In this document: one piece after another, positions 53,419 through 59,775 of the stretch
Position numbering within the stretch: position 1 is the first letter of the stretch
Layout of the letters: every line of letters starts with the position of its first letter
Assembly (NCBI RefSeq): GCF_003258295.1
Contig: NZ_QKYN01000112.1
Location: forward strand, 1-59,867
From: Streptacidiphilus pinicola
GTDB taxonomy: Bacteria > Actinomycetota > Actinomycetes > Streptomycetales > Streptomycetaceae
Length of the DNA: 59,867 bases
Direction of reading: 5' to 3'
Notes under the pieces: model-generated
Told to the model about the DNA's origin: nothing
Databases searched by the model: none
The model's input: only the letters and a program-made list of their open reading frames with translations
Program-made: the position numbers and the translations under genes

Positions 53419-55008
53419 CTACAACCGCGGCACCGCGTCCAGGAGGGCGCGGGTGTACGCGTGCTGAGGCTCGGTCAGCTTCGCGGCCGCCAGGGTCTCG
53501 ACGATCTCGCCCTGGCGCATCACCGCGACGCGGTCGCTCACCGAGCGGACCACGGCGAGGTCGTGGGCGATGAAGACCAAGGTCAGGTCGAACTCCTCGC
53601 GCAGTTCGCGCAGCAGCCCGACGACCTGGGCCTGGGTGGTGACGTCGAGGGCGGAGACCGGCTCGTCGCAGACGATCAGCTTGGGGCGCAGGATCAGCGC
53701 GCGGGCGATCGCCGCGCGTTGGCGCTGGCCGCCGGAGAGCTGGTGCGGGTGGCGGTCCGCGTGGTCGGAGGTCAGGCCGACGCGCTCCAGCAGGCCCACG
53801 ACCTCGGCACGCAGCTTCGCCTCGTCGCGCTCGCCGCGCACCCGCAGCGGCTCGGCGACCGAGTCGCCGATCAGGCGGCGCGGGTTGAGCGAGGAGGTCG
53901 GATCCTGGAAGACCATCTGCAGCTCGCGCCGCCGACGGCGCAGCTCCCCGCCGCGCCAGGAGGCGAGGTCCGCGCCCTCGAAGCGGACGACGCCGCTGCT
54001 CGGGTCCTGCAGGCGCACCAGGGTGCGACCGAGTGTCGACTTGCCCGAGCCCGACTCGCCCACGATGCCCAGGGTCTCGCCCCGACGCACCGTCAGGTCG
54101 ACGCCGCGCAGCGCCCGGACGGAGCCGAAGTCGACGCGCAACCCCTCCACCTCGACGAGGACGTCGTCCGCCGCCGGTGCGTCCCGCTCGGGCAGTGGGG
54201 CGTCCAGTCGTGGTACCGCCTCCAACAGGGCGCGGGTGTACGGGTGCTCGGGGCGGCCGAGCAGCGCGCCCGTGGCGCCGCGTTCGACGGCCCGGCCCTG
54301 CCGCAGCACCACGACCTCGGCGGCCAGGCCGCCGACCACGCCGACGTCGTGGCTCACCAGCACCAGCGCCATGCCGGTCTCCGCGCGCAACTCGTCGAGC
54401 AGGCGCAGGATCTGGGCCTGGACGGTGACGTCCAGCGCGGTGGTCGGCTCGTCCGCGACCAGGACGCGGGGGCGCAGGGCCAGGGCCATCGCGATCAGCA
54501 CGCGCTGGCGCATGCCGCCGGAGAACTGGTGCGGGTAGTCGCGGGCCCGCTTCGGGTCGATGCCGACGCGCTCCAGCACCTCCACCGTGCGCTGCCGGGC
54601 GTCGGCGCGGGAGGCGCCGGTGTGCAGGCGGTAGGCGGTGGCGATCTGGGTGCCGACGCGGCGGTACGGGTCCAGGCTGGTCAGCGGCTCCTGGAAGACC
54701 ATGGCCAGCTCCGGGCCGCGCACGGTGCGCAGCTCGGTGTCGCTCGCCCGGTTCAGGTCGAGCGCCGGACGGTCGGGGCGGTGCAGCAGCACGGCGCCCT
54801 CGACCCGGGTCGGGGTGCCGCGGTGCAGGCCGAGCAGGGCGAGCGCGGCAGCGGACTTGCCGGAGCCCGACTCGCCGACCAGGCCCAGCACCTGACCCGG
54901 CGCCAGCTCGAAGGAGAGCCCGTCGAGCGCGGTGACCGGTCCGGGGTGGATCACGCGCAGGTCTTGAACCTGCAGGACGGTTTCGACCTGCAGAACGGGG
55001 TCGGTCAT
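53419..55008 (-). CDS. Double ATP-binding protein of peptide/nickel-type ABC importer (DppD-DppF fusion)
   Basis: The protein has 529 residues with two complete ATPase domains. First half: [55 protein letters not shown]. Second half: [56 protein letters not shown]. Each half ends in the oligopeptide-type motif [14 protein letters not shown] or [17 protein letters not shown] 55008 begins 2 bases after the permease stop. It energises the importer encoded upstream. Confidence 0.95.
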
Positions 55009-55010
55009 GG

Positions 55011-55997
55011 TCAGATCCTGACTCGGGGGTCGAGCGCCGCGTGCAGCAGGTCGGCGACTGTGTTGGCGACGACGATCAGCGCGCCCGCCAGCAGGGTGAT
55101 CCCGCAGACCACGGGCAGGTCGACGGTGCTCGCCGACTCGACGGCCAGCTTGCCGAGGCCCGGCAGGCCGAACATGGTCTCGGTGAAGACGGCCCCGGCC
55201 AGCACCATCCCGATGTCCATGGCCGCGACCGTGACGACGGTCGGCAGCGCGCCGCGCACGGCGTGCCGCAGCACGATCCGGCGCTCCGGGTAGCCGTAGG
55301 CGCGCAGGGTGCGGATGTGGTCCTGGTTCAGCGTCTCCAGCACTCCGGCCCGGGTGAGCCGGGTGTAGCCGGCCGCGGAGACGAGCGCGATGGCGAGCCA
55401 CGGCAGCAGCAGGTTCTGCGCCCACTGCGCCGGATCCTCGGTCAGCGGCACGTAGTTGGGGAAGGGCAGGAGCTGCAGCCAGACGCAGGCGCCCATGAGC
55501 AGCAGCAGCGCCATCACGAAGACCGGCGTCGAACCCAGGGTCAGGATCACGGCGTTGACGACCCGGTCCCGCAGGCGTCCGGGCCGCAGCGCGGCGTAGA
55601 GGCCGGTGCCGATGCCGAGCAGTAGCCAGATCGCGGCCGCGCCGAGCGCGAGCGAGACGTCGACCGGCAGGCGGTCGAGCAGCATCTGGGTCACCGACTC
55701 GTTGCTCTGGTACGAGTAGCCGAGGCAGGGCGCGGAGCACCAGACCGTGGACGGGCCGGTGCTGAAGCCGTGGCCGAGCGCGAGCGTGGTGAGGAAGGTC
55801 CAGAACTGCCGCAGCACCGGCTGGTCGGTGCCGAGCGCGTGCCGTACCTGCGCCAGCTGCGGCGCAGTGCAGCCCTTGCCGCAGGCGAGCTGTGCCGGGT
55901 CGCCGGGCATCGCGTAGAAGAGCAGGTAGGACAGGGCGGCGAGGGCCAGCAGCACGGCGACGGCGCCGAGCAGCCGGCGGAGCAGGAATCGGATCAC
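55011..55997 (-). CDS. Peptide/nickel ABC transporter permease (DppB type)
   Basis: The protein has 328 residues. It opens IRFLLRRLLGAVAVLLALAA as in DppB/OppB and has six helices; the EAA loop is visible as RTLRAYGYPERRIVLRHAVR with LTRAGVLETLNQDHI before it. An extracellular segment between helices 1 and 2 has four Cys (LACGKGCTAP, VWCSAPCLGYS), unusual for the family. GTG 55997 overlaps the stop of the second permease gene (GTGA). Confidence 0.93.
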   Translation of the reverse strand: MIRFLLRRLLGAVAVLLALAALSYLLFYAMPGDPAQLACGKGCTAPQLAQVRHALGTDQPVLRQFWTFLTTLALGHGFSTGPSTVWCSAPCLGYSYQSNESVTQMLLDRLPVDVSLALGAAAIWLLLGIGTGLYAALRPGRLRDRVVNAVILTLGSTPVFVMALLLLMGACVWLQLLPFPNYVPLTEDPAQWAQNLLLPWLAIALVSAAGYTRLTRAGVLETLNQDHIRTLRAYGYPERRIVLRHAVRGALPTVVTVAAMDIGMVLAGAVFTETMFGLPGLGKLAVESASTVDLPVVCGITLLAGALIVVANTVADLLHAALDPRVRI

Positions 55998-57037
55998 CGG
56001 GCTTCCCCCTTCTTGCCCGCGGCCTGCTTCCGGCGCCCGCGCCGCGTGTGGGCCGGGACCGGTGACTTCGGGTCGAAGGCGACCCGCAGTGCCTCGCCCA
56101 GCCCCGCGAAGGCGAGGACGCAGACCAGCAGGGTCAGCGCCGGGACGAGCACGTAGGTCGGGTCGACCTGGAACCAGGTCGTGGACGTGGAGAGCATCTG
56201 CCCCCACGAGGACGTCGGCGGCCGTACGCCCAGGCCGAGGAAGGAGAGGCCCGCCTCGGCGACCATGTTCTGCGGGATCACGATCGCCGTGTAGGTGGCG
56301 ACCGGCGCGACCAGGCCCGGCAGGATCTCGCGGCGCGCGATGCGCCAGCTGCCGGCGCCGGTCAGCACCGCGGCGGCCACGTACTCGCGTTCGCGCAGCA
56401 CCCGCGTCTCGGCGCGGACGATGCGGGCGATCGGCGCCCAGCCCAGACCCGTGAGGATCAGGCCGAGCAGCAGCGGCCGCGGGAACGACTGCGGGACGAC
56501 CGCCAGCAGCGCGATGGAGAAGAAGAAGGTCGGCAGCGCCAGCGCCAGGTCGGTGACCCGGCTGAGCAGGGCGTCCACCCAGCGGCCGCCCCGCCGTCCG
56601 TCCGCCAGACCGGCGGCCAGACCGACCAGCAGGCCCAGCAGCAGCTGGCCGAGCGTCGCGCCGAGCGCGACGCCCAGGGAGACCCGGGCGCCGTAGACCA
56701 GCCGGGCGAACAGGTCGCGGCCGGTGGTGGGCTCGACGCCCAGCCAGTGCTGGGCGCTGATTCCGCCGAACGTGCCGTTCGGGCTGCCGCCGGTTGCGGA
56801 GTTGAGCAGGGTGTCGTGGAAGGAGTTGGGGTCCTGGCCCTCCAGCGCGGCGAGCCAGGGAGCGGTCAGCGCCACGAGGACGAGCAGACCCACGGTGACC
56901 GCGGCGGCGCGCCCGCCGCGGCGGGCCCACACTCCGGCCGCGCCGCCGGCCGGCCGCTGCGCCCCGGTGGGGAGCGCGGCGGCCGACTCGACGGCGGCAC
57001 CGGGTTCGGTGCTGGTGAGCGTCACGTGACCACTCAT
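55994..57037 (-). CDS. Peptide/nickel ABC transporter permease (DppC type)
   Basis: The protein has 347 residues. A 45-residue Ala/Gly-rich N-terminus precedes the usual DppC opening; HWLGVEPTTGRDLFARLVYG is the strongly conserved post-helix-1 signature. The EAA loop is YVAAAVLTGAGSWRIARREI. Six helices are visible, followed by a basic C-tail. The ATG shares one base with the TGA of the binding-protein gene, so translation is coupled. Confidence 0.93.
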   Translation of the reverse strand: MSGHVTLTSTEPGAAVESAAALPTGAQRPAGGAAGVWARRGGRAAAVTVGLLVLVALTAPWLAALEGQDPNSFHDTLLNSATGGSPNGTFGGISAQHWLGVEPTTGRDLFARLVYGARVSLGVALGATLGQLLLGLLVGLAAGLADGRRGGRWVDALLSRVTDLALALPTFFFSIALLAVVPQSFPRPLLLGLILTGLGWAPIARIVRAETRVLREREYVAAAVLTGAGSWRIARREILPGLVAPVATYTAIVIPQNMVAEAGLSFLGLGVRPPTSSWGQMLSTSTTWFQVDPTYVLVPALTLLVCVLAFAGLGEALRVAFDPKSPVPAHTRRGRRKQAAGKKGEAR

Positions 57038-58752
57038 CACTTGACCGAGACCGAGGCGATGTCGTACCAGCCGCGCCACTGGTCCAGGTAGGCGTTCTTG
57101 ACGTGCGAGCCGTACAGGACGCTGGTGGCCTCCTCGTACAGCGGCACGGTCAGCGCCAGCTTGCCCAGCTGGGCGTCGAGCGCGGCCCACTGCTGCTGCG
57201 CGGCGGTGTAGTCGGTGATTTGGTTGATCTTGTCGATCTGTGCGTTCACGGCCGGGTCGTTGTACTGGGCCAGGTTGAAGTTGCCGCCGCCGGTGACGAT
57301 CTGACGGCCGTCGAAGATCGGCGTCAGGAACGGGCCGCCGCTCGGCCAGTCGGCGCCCCAGCTGGTCAGGGTGAGCGCGGGTTGGGTCGCCGGGGTGTTG
57401 ACGGTGCTGTTGAAGTCCGCGTCGCTGAGCGGCTGCAGCTGCAGGGTGATGCCGGCCTTGGCGAAGGCCTGCTGCAGCGCGGTCGCGGCGGGCGCGCCGG
57501 TGTTCACGTCGTCGGTGTCGTAGGCGAGCGGTACGGTGATGCCGTTCGGGTGGCCGGCCTGGGCCAGCAGCTGCTTGGCCTTCGTCGGGTTCCCGGTCGC
57601 GCCCGCGGGGAAGTAGTCGTAGTCCTGGTGAGCCGCCGTCAGGCTCTCCGGGGTGAAGGTGGTGCTGGGCACGGCCAGCTGGGTGCCGCCCTCGGCGTTG
57701 ACCAGGGCGGTGCGGTCCACGGCGTAGGAGAGCGCCTCGCGCACCAGCTGGTTGTCGAACGGGGCCTTCTTCAGGTCGAAGGCCAGGTAGAAGATCTGCG
57801 GGAACTTGCCGGTCACCACGCGCTTCTTCAGCGCCGGGTCGGCGGAGACCCTGGCCAGGGTCGGCGCGTCCAGCGAGGTGTCGGTGGTGATGGCGTTCGC
57901 GTCCTGGCCGACGGAGGCGCTCAGGCGCTGGTTGATGACGGCGGAGGAGAGCCCGAGCGAGATGTCGATCCGGTCCGGGCAGGCCAGGCGCTGCTGGTCG
58001 GTGCTGCGCGACCAGTAGCTGTTGCGGACGAGGTCGAGCTCCTTGCCCTTGGTGAAGCCCGCGATGCTGTAGGGGCCGGAGGAGACGGGGTCGGCGTTGT
58101 ACTCCTTGCCGGTGTCCTTCGCCTTGGGCACCGGGGCGAACTGCGTCTCGGCCGCCAGATAGGGGAAGTCGCCCTCGCTCTTGCGCAGGTGGAAGACGAT
58201 GGTGCTCGGGTCGGGCGTCGCGATGGAGGCCAGGTCGGTGGTGCCGCCGCCGTACGGGCCCTGGTAGTCGGCGCCGCCGACCAGCCAGTCGCGCAGGTAG
58301 GGCGGGCCGCCCGCCAGCTGCGGGGAGAAGGAGCGCTCGACGCCGTACTTGATGTCGGCGGCGGTGATCGGTGTGCCGTCCGCGTACTTCAGCCCGGACT
58401 TGAGGTGGTAGGTCCAGACGGTGGCGTTCTGGCTCGGCGTGCCGGTGTCCGTGGCCAGGTCCGGCACGACCTTGGTGCCGTTGGTGCCGGCCACGCTCTG
58501 ACGTGTGGTCAGGGTGCGGAAGAGCAGACGCGGGATGGCGCCGCCGCCGGAGGTGTAGAGCACGGCCGGGTCGAAGCCCTTGGTGTTCTTGGCGCTGTCG
58601 AGGACACGCAGCGTGCCGCCCTGGCAGTTCGCGGCCGAGAACGCGTCCGAGGAGCTCGCGGAGGAGCTGCTGCCGGCGCCGCAGGCGGCGAGGGAGCCGG
58701 TCAGGGCGACAGCGGTGGCGGTGAATAGCGCTATTCGGGCAGGGCGAAGCAT
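57037..58752 (-). CDS. Family 5 extracellular solute-binding lipoprotein
   Basis: The protein has 571 residues. The signal peptide ends in the lipobox LAACGAG. TLRVLDSAKNTKGFDPAVLY and LVPDLATD-type segments start the mature domain, with FRTLTTRQSVAGTNG, LKYADGTPITAADIKYGVER (family 5 signature region) and VREALSYAVDRTALVN. It should capture peptides, or less often metal complexes or glycans, for the downstream permeases. The operon order is binding protein, DppC-type, DppB-type, double ATPase. It lies 176 bases downstream of the candidate leader ORF. Confidence 0.94.
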   Translation of the reverse strand: MLRPARIALFTATAVALTGSLAACGAGSSSSASSSDAFSAANCQGGTLRVLDSAKNTKGFDPAVLYTSGGGAIPRLLFRTLTTRQSVAGTNGTKVVPDLATDTGTPSQNATVWTYHLKSGLKYADGTPITAADIKYGVERSFSPQLAGGPPYLRDWLVGGADYQGPYGGGTTDLASIATPDPSTIVFHLRKSEGDFPYLAAETQFAPVPKAKDTGKEYNADPVSSGPYSIAGFTKGKELDLVRNSYWSRSTDQQRLACPDRIDISLGLSSAVINQRLSASVGQDANAITTDTSLDAPTLARVSADPALKKRVVTGKFPQIFYLAFDLKKAPFDNQLVREALSYAVDRTALVNAEGGTQLAVPSTTFTPESLTAAHQDYDYFPAGATGNPTKAKQLLAQAGHPNGITVPLAYDTDDVNTGAPAATALQQAFAKAGITLQLQPLSDADFNSTVNTPATQPALTLTSWGADWPSGGPFLTPIFDGRQIVTGGGNFNLAQYNDPAVNAQIDKINQITDYTAAQQQWAALDAQLGKLALTVPLYEEATSVLYGSHVKNAYLDQWRGWYDIASVSVK

Positions 58753-58858
58753 CGTGGTGTCCTTGGTCGGGCGACGGCCCGGGCAGGGGGAGTCCGCGCG
58801 GCGGGGCGCACGCGCGGCGCGGCACGGCGGCAGGGGCCGCGCCGGAAAGGGGGGAATT

Positions 58859-58950
58859 CTCAGGTGCTGAGACCTGGCTGCTCAGAATGCGGCAGCAGGA
58901 GGAACGAGCGGGCAGCGGCCCGCCTGCGTCAGCGACAACAGAAGTTGTCG
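58859..58950 (-). promoter_or_regulatory. Candidate attenuator region with several hairpins
   Basis: Read leftward: hairpin CGACAAC-TTCT-GTTGTCG (58950-58933) within the leader ORF end. Next GCGGGC-CGCT-GCCCGC (58923-58908) starts six bases past its stop. Then come two mutually exclusive short stems, CAGGT/ACCTG (58876-58861) and CTCAG/CTGAG (58871-58859). Overlapping alternatives after a leader ORF are what a translation-dependent attenuator would need. Confidence 0.45.
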
Positions 58951-59030
58951 GACACGCTGTGCGCACACATCGCCAGCAGCGTGACCTGGTAGGTCGGCTG
59001 GACGGGGGCGAGGTGGTGGTGCGCGTGCAT
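58929..59030 (-). CDS. Predicted 33-residue leader peptide ending in tandem Cys
   Basis: From ATG 59030 the frame encodes MHAHHHLAPVQPTY, a short hydrophobic stretch with MCAHS, and ends DNFCCR before TGA. All three cysteines use TGT, a rare codon in such GC-rich DNA where TGC dominates. The ATG is nine bases after a TACAGT -10, so it may be leaderless; ATG 59036 is an alternative two residues earlier. It precedes the peptide ABC operon with no gene between, and the two tandem Cys codons lie in the 3' arm of a perfect hairpin. This resembles cysteine-responsive attenuation leaders of actinobacteria, but the sequence itself is not one I recognise. Confidence 0.55.
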   Translation of the reverse strand: MHAHHHLAPVQPTYQVTLLAMCAHSVSDNFCCR

Positions 59031-59038
59031 GGTCATGG

Positions 59039-59068
59039 ACTGTAGGGGGGCTGAATAAGGCCAGTCAA
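59039..59068 (-). promoter_or_regulatory. Strong promoter for the leader / ABC importer operon
   Basis: Read leftward, TTGACT (59068-59063) and TACAGT (59044-59039) are spaced 18 bp, close to the vegetative consensus. It sits directly after the stop of the rhomboid-like gene, and transcription would begin at or next to ATG 59030. Confidence 0.7.
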
Positions 59069-59079
59069 CATGACGGTGT

Positions 59080-59775
59080 CTAGGATCTCGCATGCCGGAA
59101 CCAGTTTTGGACAGCGTGGACGGTGGCGACCGGATCCCACGAGCCCGGCCGACTGCGCGTCAGCGGGTAACAGGCCAGGCCCAGCAGCAGCGCGCTGAAG
59201 TGGCCGACGCTGGTGAAGTCGCGGCTCCGGACGACGCCGAGACCGTAGAAGACGAGCAGCCCGACCAGGTAGAGGTACCGCCACGGCTTGGCGATCAGGT
59301 AGACCAGCACCGCCTCGACCCCCGCCAGCGCGTAGCTGACGCCGTAGTCGAGGGTGAAGCGCGCCTTCTCCGGCGCCATGCCGTGGTTGATCGCCCAGGA
59401 GAGCACGCCTTCGCTGATGTACGTCGCGCCGACGTGCGTGATGAGCACCACCGCGAGCCAGCGCGCGGTGCCCAGCCAGCGCTCGGCCGGCACGTGGAAG
59501 ATGTTGTAGAGCACCAGGTAGAACCACCACCCGCCGCCGGCGATGTAGAAGGCGCTGGTGATCAGCACCCGGACCGGCTGGGTCGAGAGGTAGTGCAGGT
59601 TGGTGGAGTGCCGCTGCAGGATCCGGTCCGCCGTGTGCGGATCCACGTGCCGGATCACCACGGTCGTCACGAAGAGGATCAGCAGCCAGATGAAGGTGCC
59701 GGGAGCCCTGCGGACGTAGGCCCACACGGCCCGTCGGCCCCGACCGATCCGGCCCCCCGCCGCGACGAGTTCCAT
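59080..59775 (-). CDS. Rhomboid-like multi-pass membrane protein
   Basis: The protein has 231 residues with six hydrophobic helices: TFIWLLILFVTTVVIR, VLITSAFYIAGGGWWFYLVL, WLAVVLITHVGATYISEG, YALAGVEAVLVYLIA, LYLVGLLVFYGLGV and GHFSALLLGLACY. The topology and the LITSAFYIAGGGWWFY and GHFSALLLGL segments match the actinobacterial rhomboid-like family. The catalytic GxSG motif is replaced (DYGVSYALAG at the expected position keeps a Ser but not the Gly pattern), so protease activity is uncertain. AAGGGATC precedes ATG 59775. The 92 bases to the window end show no gene. Confidence 0.78.
   Translation of the reverse strand: MELVAAGGRIGRGRRAVWAYVRRAPGTFIWLLILFVTTVVIRHVDPHTADRILQRHSTNLHYLSTQPVRVLITSAFYIAGGGWWFYLVLYNIFHVPAERWLGTARWLAVVLITHVGATYISEGVLSWAINHGMAPEKARFTLDYGVSYALAGVEAVLVYLIAKPWRYLYLVGLLVFYGLGVVRSRDFTSVGHFSALLLGLACYPLTRSRPGSWDPVATVHAVQNWFRHARS

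Follow-up and report, generated by a model that had tools for sequence, protein, structure and literature searches.

The importer operon and its leader ORF

The window analysed here is a 59,867-nt stretch of the Streptacidiphilus pinicola genome, and the features described below lie on its minus strand (Table 1). Genes for a binding protein, two permeases and an ATPase follow one another in close succession, and they were assigned to the SBP_bac_5/Opp-Dpp importers by a PF00496 match of the binding protein above the cut-off, by PF00528 matches in both permeases and by two separate PF00005 matches in the ATPase. Among solved structures, the closest in sequence to the binding protein is 2wok (clavulanic acid biosynthesis oligopeptide binding protein 2). 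Upstream of the binding-protein gene lies a short ORF, the leader, whose stop codon is 176 nt from that gene; the same distance has a median of 192 nt in Streptomyces-type leaders (n = 80). An alternative in-frame ATG is found 6 nt upstream of the leader ATG (at 59036) and would give a peptide beginning with MTM. The gene upstream of the leader promoter is rhomboid-like (PF20401, 59080-59775), and some 12 nt separate its end from the promoter. Since that gene shares the strand and ends at 59080, read-through transcription into the leader is possible. A search of Rfam with positions 58600-59200 returned nothing at the gathering score and two sub-threshold matches, the better with an E-value of 2.9.

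Table 1. Positions of the leader, its predicted RNA elements and the importer genes in the window.
Feature	Positions	Strand	Description
Leader promoter	59039-59068	-	-35 TTGACT at 59068-59063, 18-nt spacer, -10 TACAGT at 59044-59039
Leader ORF	58929-59030	-	33 codons; ATG at 59030, TGA at 58931-58929; peptide MHAHHHLAPVQPTYQVTLLAMCAHSVSDNFCCR; homologues at the equivalent place in relatives
Conserved peptide core	58938-58985	-	VTLLAMCAHSVSDNFC; last residue is the DxxC cysteine (TGT 58940-58938)
Hairpin I	58933-58950	-	CGACAAC-TTCT-GTTGTCG, 7 bp; overlaps the tandem TGT codons
Hairpin II	58903-58930	-	Begins inside the stop codon; analogous, non-identical hairpins in many relatives
Shine-Dalgarno sequence of the binding-protein gene	58760-58764	-	AAGGA; longest contiguous upstream partner 4 bp
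Solute-binding lipoprotein, family 5 (SBP_bac_5)	57037-58752	-	571 aa; PF00496, 230.5 bits (cut-off 32.4)
Permease, second of Dpp/Opp type, DppC-like by position	55994-57037	-	PF00528, 96.1 bits
Permease, DppB-like	55011-55997	-	PF19300, 135.9 bits; PF00528, 136.3 bits; four conserved Cys in an early loop
Fused double ATPase, DppD-DppF type	53419-55008	-	PF00005, two stretches

The first-pass annotation of this DNA had described a 33-codon ORF with three rare TGT Cys codons, two of them in tandem just before the stop. The codons are as described: the Cys codons at 58967-58965, 58940-58938 and 58937-58935 are all TGT, whereas ten further long ORFs of the window have 37 Cys codons, of which one is TGT and 36 are TGC. 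The tandem pair is confirmed as well, except that it does not adjoin the stop codon directly, as one Arg codon (CGC) stands between them.

The same annotation had read the cysteines of the DppB-like permease as a hint of a Cys-rich or thiol substrate. These cysteines (ACGKGC ... WCSAPCLGYS) are kept in all 23 rows compared (21 distinct), including those of six loci at which no leader was detected. Their conservation is independent of the leader and therefore provides no evidence for a Cys-rich substrate, and we abandoned that argument. The loop cysteines possibly form disulfides. A recurring gene neighbourhood of the importer was seen at six loci (L176, L177, L179, L180, L182, and L183). To judge by sequence starts, it contains what we take to be a glycosyltransferase-like gene and, in several cases, presumably an epimerase-like gene; a presumed MoeZ/ThiF-like gene, named in the same way, lies near the importer in L177 and L179.

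Promoter placement

TTGACT-18-TACAGT was the sole promoter-like site in positions 58740-59120, with a mean of 0.0 sites in 50 shuffles, and the end of its second hexamer is 8 nt from the leader ATG. The near-consensus promoter that had been proposed a few bases before the ORF was thus recovered. For comparison with relatives, the window's group consists of the window's own genome and four named Streptacidiphilus, and the Actinospica-type group of three Actinospica-family genomes and two of the window's own genus; the names Mycobacteriaceae for family f6 and Streptomyces for genus g9 were inferred. A search for a TANNNT -10 box worked for the leaders of the window's group, the Actinospica-type and f6; in f6 the box ends 7 nt upstream of the start in 15/15 leaders (2.3 expected). 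In Streptomyces-type leaders it was found in 10 of 87, against 18 expected, and this failure led to the test for TTGAC. That element was present 38 nt upstream of the ATG in 5/5 leaders of the window's group (0.1 expected by shuffling), 35-37 nt upstream in 79 of 87 Streptomyces-type leaders (1.3 expected by shuffling) and 36-37 nt upstream of the start in 5/5 Actinospica-type leaders (0.1 expected), and in none of the 15 f6 leaders. The promoter spacing fits transcription from, or near, the leader start codon, and the leader in the window is probably leaderless or nearly so.

Linkage of leader and importer

Relatives of the binding protein were collected at 17 loci, two of which (Treponema and Hyphomonadaceae) are distant and were set aside. 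A related leader is located upstream at nine of the 15 retained loci (four Streptacidiphilus, two Actinospica, two Streptomyces, and one Actinacidiphila), and none was present in the ORF lists of the 600-900 bases upstream at the other six (Actinomadura and Paractinoplanes; L037, L038, L042, L044, L045, and L046). A profile of 23 positions built from nine leader peptides (A1) matched in 205 of 391 Streptomycetales genomes at an E-value of 0.05 and in 198 at E < 0.001; a close homologue of the binding protein occurs in 194 of these 391 genomes (E < 1e-170). At the cut-offs of E < 0.001 for the leader (seven weaker matches excluded) and E < 1e-170 for the binding protein (56 weaker matches excluded), 193 genomes have both, five have the leader only, one has the binding protein only, and 192 have neither. 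The gene in the single genome with the binding protein only lies at a contig edge. The five leader-only genomes, read by eye, have kept the leader intact but lost most of the operon that follows it.

We also read 97 distinct Streptomycetales leaders in their context, and in 95 of them an SBP5 gene follows; the two exceptions, like L117 within the 95, represent what a deletion has left of the importer operon. Conservation of the ORF in relatives with the same operon, which had been suggested as a check on the first reading, is borne out by these 95 loci and by the 193 genomes with both genes. Judged by this conservation, the leader is not a chance frame. An intact leader with most of the importer operon gone was noted by eye at the Streptomyces-type loci L116, L117, L118, L190, and L191, and at L033 (S. 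neutrinimicus) a run of N, either an assembly gap or a masked stretch, separates the leader from the binding-protein gene. A tblastn search of plasmids with the leader core gave no match, and a 20-base degenerate pattern gave only background in the window's own genome (seven matches vs 11 in the control).

The peptide core and the TGT codon

The leader peptides share the C-terminal core L-x-L-[IL]-[GA]-[VM]-x4-[VL]-[ASC]-D-x-x-C and are variable in their N-terminal half. The filter used to collect them demanded [VL][ASC]D..C at most four codons from the stop; the invariance of D and C within the collection is therefore by construction, but that of the codon is not. In hand-chosen alignments, D and C were invariant in 9/9 and 14/14 rows. 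Leaders that passed the filter have 0-2 residues after the core, and a few others have 5-10: L087, L136, and L215 have five, ten, and five codons, respectively, between the DxxC TGT and the stop, so the distance from TGT to stop is not absolute.

The codon of the DxxC cysteine is TGT in 112/112 distinct leaders, and also in 14/14 further loci, seven that the filter had dropped and seven found later. The inner Cys codons of the collected leaders are TGC in 67 cases and TGT in 11. Where an extra Cys follows DxxC directly before the stop, its codon is TGC (18/18); in five leaders in which the DxxC cysteine is itself the last residue, it is TGT. Most leaders end with an NGC codon (Arg, Cys, Ser, or Gly), suggesting that the nucleotides around the stop are constrained besides the peptide. 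The TGT preference could arise from pairing in a CGACA/TGTCG hairpin or in the hairpin after the stop, and slow wobble decoding of UGU is another possible cause. The genome also encodes Cys leaders of a different type (see below), and their first Cys codon is again TGT; this favours a codon reason, on the basis of a handful of cases.

Over 17 codons, pN/pS was 0.53 for 97 Streptomycetales leaders and 0.38 for 15 f6 leaders, which places the peptide under selection, but of moderate strength. Third codon positions are constrained too.

RNA structure around the leader stop codon

Hairpins I and II are both present in the minimum-energy fold of the leader, and the fold of the 178-nt leader (-73.2 kcal/mol vs a shuffle mean of -62.3 kcal/mol, z -2.86) is better than that of 200/200 shuffles. 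A perfect CGACAAC/GTTGTCG hairpin and a second hairpin after the stop had been proposed from the letters of the sequence, and both stand in the fold of the window; as conserved features they fare differently. The exact 7-bp hairpin I is confined to a few close relatives, and elsewhere a 5-bp CGACA/TGTCG core is often found, whereas hairpin II is conserved in part, with counterparts in many but not all relatives. There were no terminator-like sites in 58740-59120, that is, no intrinsic terminator of the kind that a classical trp-type attenuator has.

The contiguous stem of hairpin II averaged 5.6 in the 87 Streptomyces-type leaders vs 4.8 after shuffling, and was singly significant in 10 of them; it was significant in 3/15 f6 leaders and in 0/4 and 0/5 of the remaining groups. 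Covariation was examined with an anchored test, whose rule 63 of 87 Streptomyces-type leaders fit (24 were excluded). Among the five inner pairs of the post-stop hairpin, the second covaried clearly (5/2000 shuffles) and the first weakly (134/2000), and the other three gave no signal. No pair covaried in the 11 of 15 f6 leaders that fit the rule, which perhaps selects the wrong partner there. Covariation of the stems, the other comparison that had been called for at the outset, was thus clear at a single pair in Streptomyces-type leaders. RNAalifold on mixed alignments gave no usable result. In three of four f6 leaders examined, a long hairpin runs from the last Cys codon to past the stop.

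Pairing of the Shine-Dalgarno sequence with the leader showed no excess over shuffles in the window's group (0/3) and a slight excess in two Streptomyces-type groups (5/39 each, with 1/39 and 2/39 in the control window); in f6 the count was 2/15, with 0 in the control. Sequestration of the Shine-Dalgarno sequence by the leader was not clearly seen and was dropped as a reading: duplex energies were no better than those of shuffles, and the excess in stem score was only slight. An in-silico ribosome footprint raised access to the Shine-Dalgarno sequence by more than 0.1 in 12/78 Streptomyces-type, 5/15 f6, and 0/3 window-group leaders, and lowered it in four, two, and one of them, respectively. 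A Rho-dependent readout, as proposed in 2005 for mycobacterial cys leaders in the part of that paper available to us (PMC1262725), is possible for the leader in the window.

Related leaders and the genes behind them

The NCBI model NF042937 ("Ms4533A family Cys-rich leader peptide", cut-off 31 bits) matched Streptomyces-type leaders at the same locus with 54.5 and 41.6 bits, and one Actinospica-type leader with 26.8 bits. The window peptide gave no match at E ≤ 1, nor at E ≤ 10 with the longer start, and its genome (G000) had none; the peptide is thus a divergent homologue rather than a formal member. Its core with the DxxC end is homologous to the Ms4533A-type core. Across the class, NF042937 matched in 40 of 394 genomes at an E-value of 0.01, 35 of them over the cut-off, and in none of 14 controls, and profile A3 matched in 13 of 396 genomes of the phylum.

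Behind the f6 leaders, the next gene is SubI-like in 15/15 loci, the query having been one of these genes; from its sequence, we take it to be sulfate-binding-protein-like. One f20 genome has the same leader core (LALFAV-VADxxC) before a Pfam Sulfatase gene (213.5 bits; L215, G678:C82:17500-20500). This leader has RRVAR after the DxxC cysteine, and TTGACT is positioned 36 nt before an in-frame GTG and 27 nt before an ATG.

Three other Cys leaders in the window's own genome scored 32.2, 27.1, and 33.7 bits with NF042934 ("putative leader peptide", cut-off 27 bits). The genes behind these three are one of nitrite/sulfite-reductase type, one of TauD type and one that resembles amino-acid ABC permeases below the cut-off only. 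The leaders (L210, L212, and L214, and also L207 and L209) are of the HVDL type with TGT as the first Cys codon, and a ribosome-read cysteine regulon formed by the HVDL-type leaders of this genome is possible. NF042936 (Ms4527A) matched below its cut-off only, and did so in one of the 14 control genomes as well. Because the genes behind such leaders are largely about sulfur, the family 5 importer may be sulfur-related too; it probably supplies a sulfur or cysteine source.

A model for control of the importer and its alternatives

We consider it likely that the 33-codon ORF acts in cis as an attenuator that responds to cysteine and controls an importer whose substrate probably supplies sulfur, and that it is a divergent homologue of the Ms4533A type. 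This reading starts from the observed ORF, the position of its promoter, the invariant TGT codon, the conserved peptide and the linkage to the operon. Stalling of the ribosome, the direction of control, the readout (translation or transcription) and the substrate class are what we infer on top of these. Because the ORF is homologous to leaders that NCBI already groups under the name of a Cys-rich leader from mycobacteria, cysteine-responsive stalling is the most likely mechanism. With the transcript starting at or beside the leader ATG, ribosomes would enter at the 5′ end of the mRNA. Given enough cysteine, they would cross the TGT codons, end at the TGA and leave, and the RNA structures past the stop would hold the importer operon low. 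When Cys-tRNA is scarce, the ribosome would halt at the conserved DxxC TGT, and its footprint would occlude both the stop codon and the upstream (5′) arm of the post-stop hairpin, which could then not form. The importer operon would be expressed as a consequence, and the importer would take up a sulfur or cysteine source. Built on homology and anatomy, this appears to be the best model. Several points count against it: NF042937 misses the window peptide, the single Cys codon of 25/86 Streptomyces-type leaders is thin for a sensor of hungry codons, and the conservation of the peptide core exceeds what such a sensor requires. The lack of a terminator-like site, the small or absent excess of Shine-Dalgarno pairing, the few leaders opened by the in-silico footprint and the possible read-through from the rhomboid-like gene, all described above, weigh on the same side.

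The main rival of codon sensing is an arrest peptide, in which the conserved nascent chain would stall the ribosome via the exit tunnel. The stall would then be modulated by cysteine itself, by a metabolite related to it or by release at the stop codon, and not by plain lack of Cys-tRNA. It would account for a core common to leaders before three unrelated kinds of gene, for pN/pS values below one half and slightly above it, and for the single-Cys leaders just mentioned. Part of the peptide conservation could, however, be an RNA constraint, given that third positions are constrained as well, and the HVDL-type Cys leaders of the same genome have another peptide with the same TGT habit, which favours codon sensing. 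We think an arrest peptide unlikely as the explanation of the window leader. Far less probable is that the ORF merely aids downstream translation by ribosome delivery or reinitiation. Such a role has been proposed for Actinobacteria leader genes near the structural gene, in the accessible part of PMC4833913, but the effect concerns very short distances, compared with 176 nt here and the median of 192 nt in 80 Streptomyces-type leaders, and it does not predict an invariant TGT. A function of the small peptide in trans is more improbable still: the core is conserved and five genomes keep the leader despite a largely deleted operon as read by eye, yet the deletions in these cases may have happened recently, leader and operon are elsewhere linked almost without exception, and the peptides vary in their N-terminal half. 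GC-rich DNA commonly contains short ORFs and stems, but a chance ORF and hairpin in a 5′ UTR is contradicted by the conservation, the linkage, the TGT invariance and the promoter spacing, and we regard it as negligible.

A wider reading, which we put forward only tentatively and think somewhat improbable, is that the Ms4533A-type leader would be a portable arrest module for sulfur limitation, made of a nascent-chain core and a single obligatory TGT and placed before unrelated sulfur-acquisition genes (a sulfate-binding protein, a sulfatase, and a family 5 importer) in different actinobacterial lineages; the importer would then be an unrecognised uptake system for organosulfur compounds or cysteine peptides. 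To return to the attenuator, it would link the supply of cysteine or sulfur to a widespread importer, whose binding protein has a close homologue in 194 of the 391 Streptomycetales genomes, and so offers a direct hypothesis about what is transported. One type of leader peptide is used before unrelated genes. Leaders with a single and strictly TGT Cys codon make the choice between codon sensing and nascent-chain arrest testable. The current NCBI model NF042937 misses divergent members of the family.

Comparison with known leader systems

The papers searched, mostly from outside subscription journals, contained no description of a Cys leader upstream of a family 5 importer, and this agrees with the first-pass annotation, which knew of cysteine attenuation in mycobacteria and of no example with such an importer. 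The mycobacterial precedent is documented in the available parts of two papers. Cys leaders were predicted in 2005 before mycobacterial and P. acnes cys operons and B. longum cbs (PMC1262725), and a Cys leader at another locus is ribosome-occupied in M. smegmatis (PMC4633059). As far as the available text of PMC1262725 goes, those leaders resemble the present one in being short ORFs with Cys codons near the stop, in having no terminator found and in the possible role proposed for Rho; they differ in their downstream genes, and no Streptomyces Cys leader is reported in that text. The accessible portion of the S. lividans re-annotation (PMC8079986) has eight leader peptides, none of them termed Cys-dependent there. 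One of these, the metL (metNIQ) leader MSTTSDRTPATEATTTPGARCMCRRMCAF, is assigned to methionine in the same portion of PMC8079986 and has three Cys interleaved with Met. It might also read cysteine. Since an NCBI model already matches the Streptomyces-type leaders, the peptide family is not new; the leader looks functional and is of a known kind, with a divergent peptide and in a new setting before this importer.

Polycysteine leaderless short ORFs of M. smegmatis located before an operon were reportedly described by Canestrari in 2020, with a cysteine response by ribosome stalling proposed, and the mycobacterial readout is said there to be sequestration of the ribosome-binding site. The leader in the window is similar to those in being a short, probably leaderless ORF with Cys codons ahead of an operon. 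It differs in that its own group showed no sign of sequestration, and Streptomyces-type leaders showed a weak one. In arrest peptides of the TnaC type, the leader peptide is conserved and has a key Asp not far from its C-terminal end. The conserved peptide of our leaders and the Asp close to its C terminus are comparable; no evidence for sensing of a free amino acid or for a Rho site, as in the TnaC type, was found for the window leader.

Peptides of the NF042934 and NF042936 kind occur in the same genome, have TGT as the first Cys codon and in some cases precede sulfur-related genes, but their motif is HVDL-x-RV-S-x-x-C, unlike the LxLIxV-VAD core. The Ms4533A family is also among the closest known systems. 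It differs from the case in the window in that the window peptide falls below detection and is followed by a family 5 importer, and the Streptomyces-type leaders often have one Cys and no run of them. The likeness lies in the Streptomyces-type and f6 leaders, which match the profile, and in the core, the DxxC TGT and the layout of a promoter directly before the leader, which are shared.
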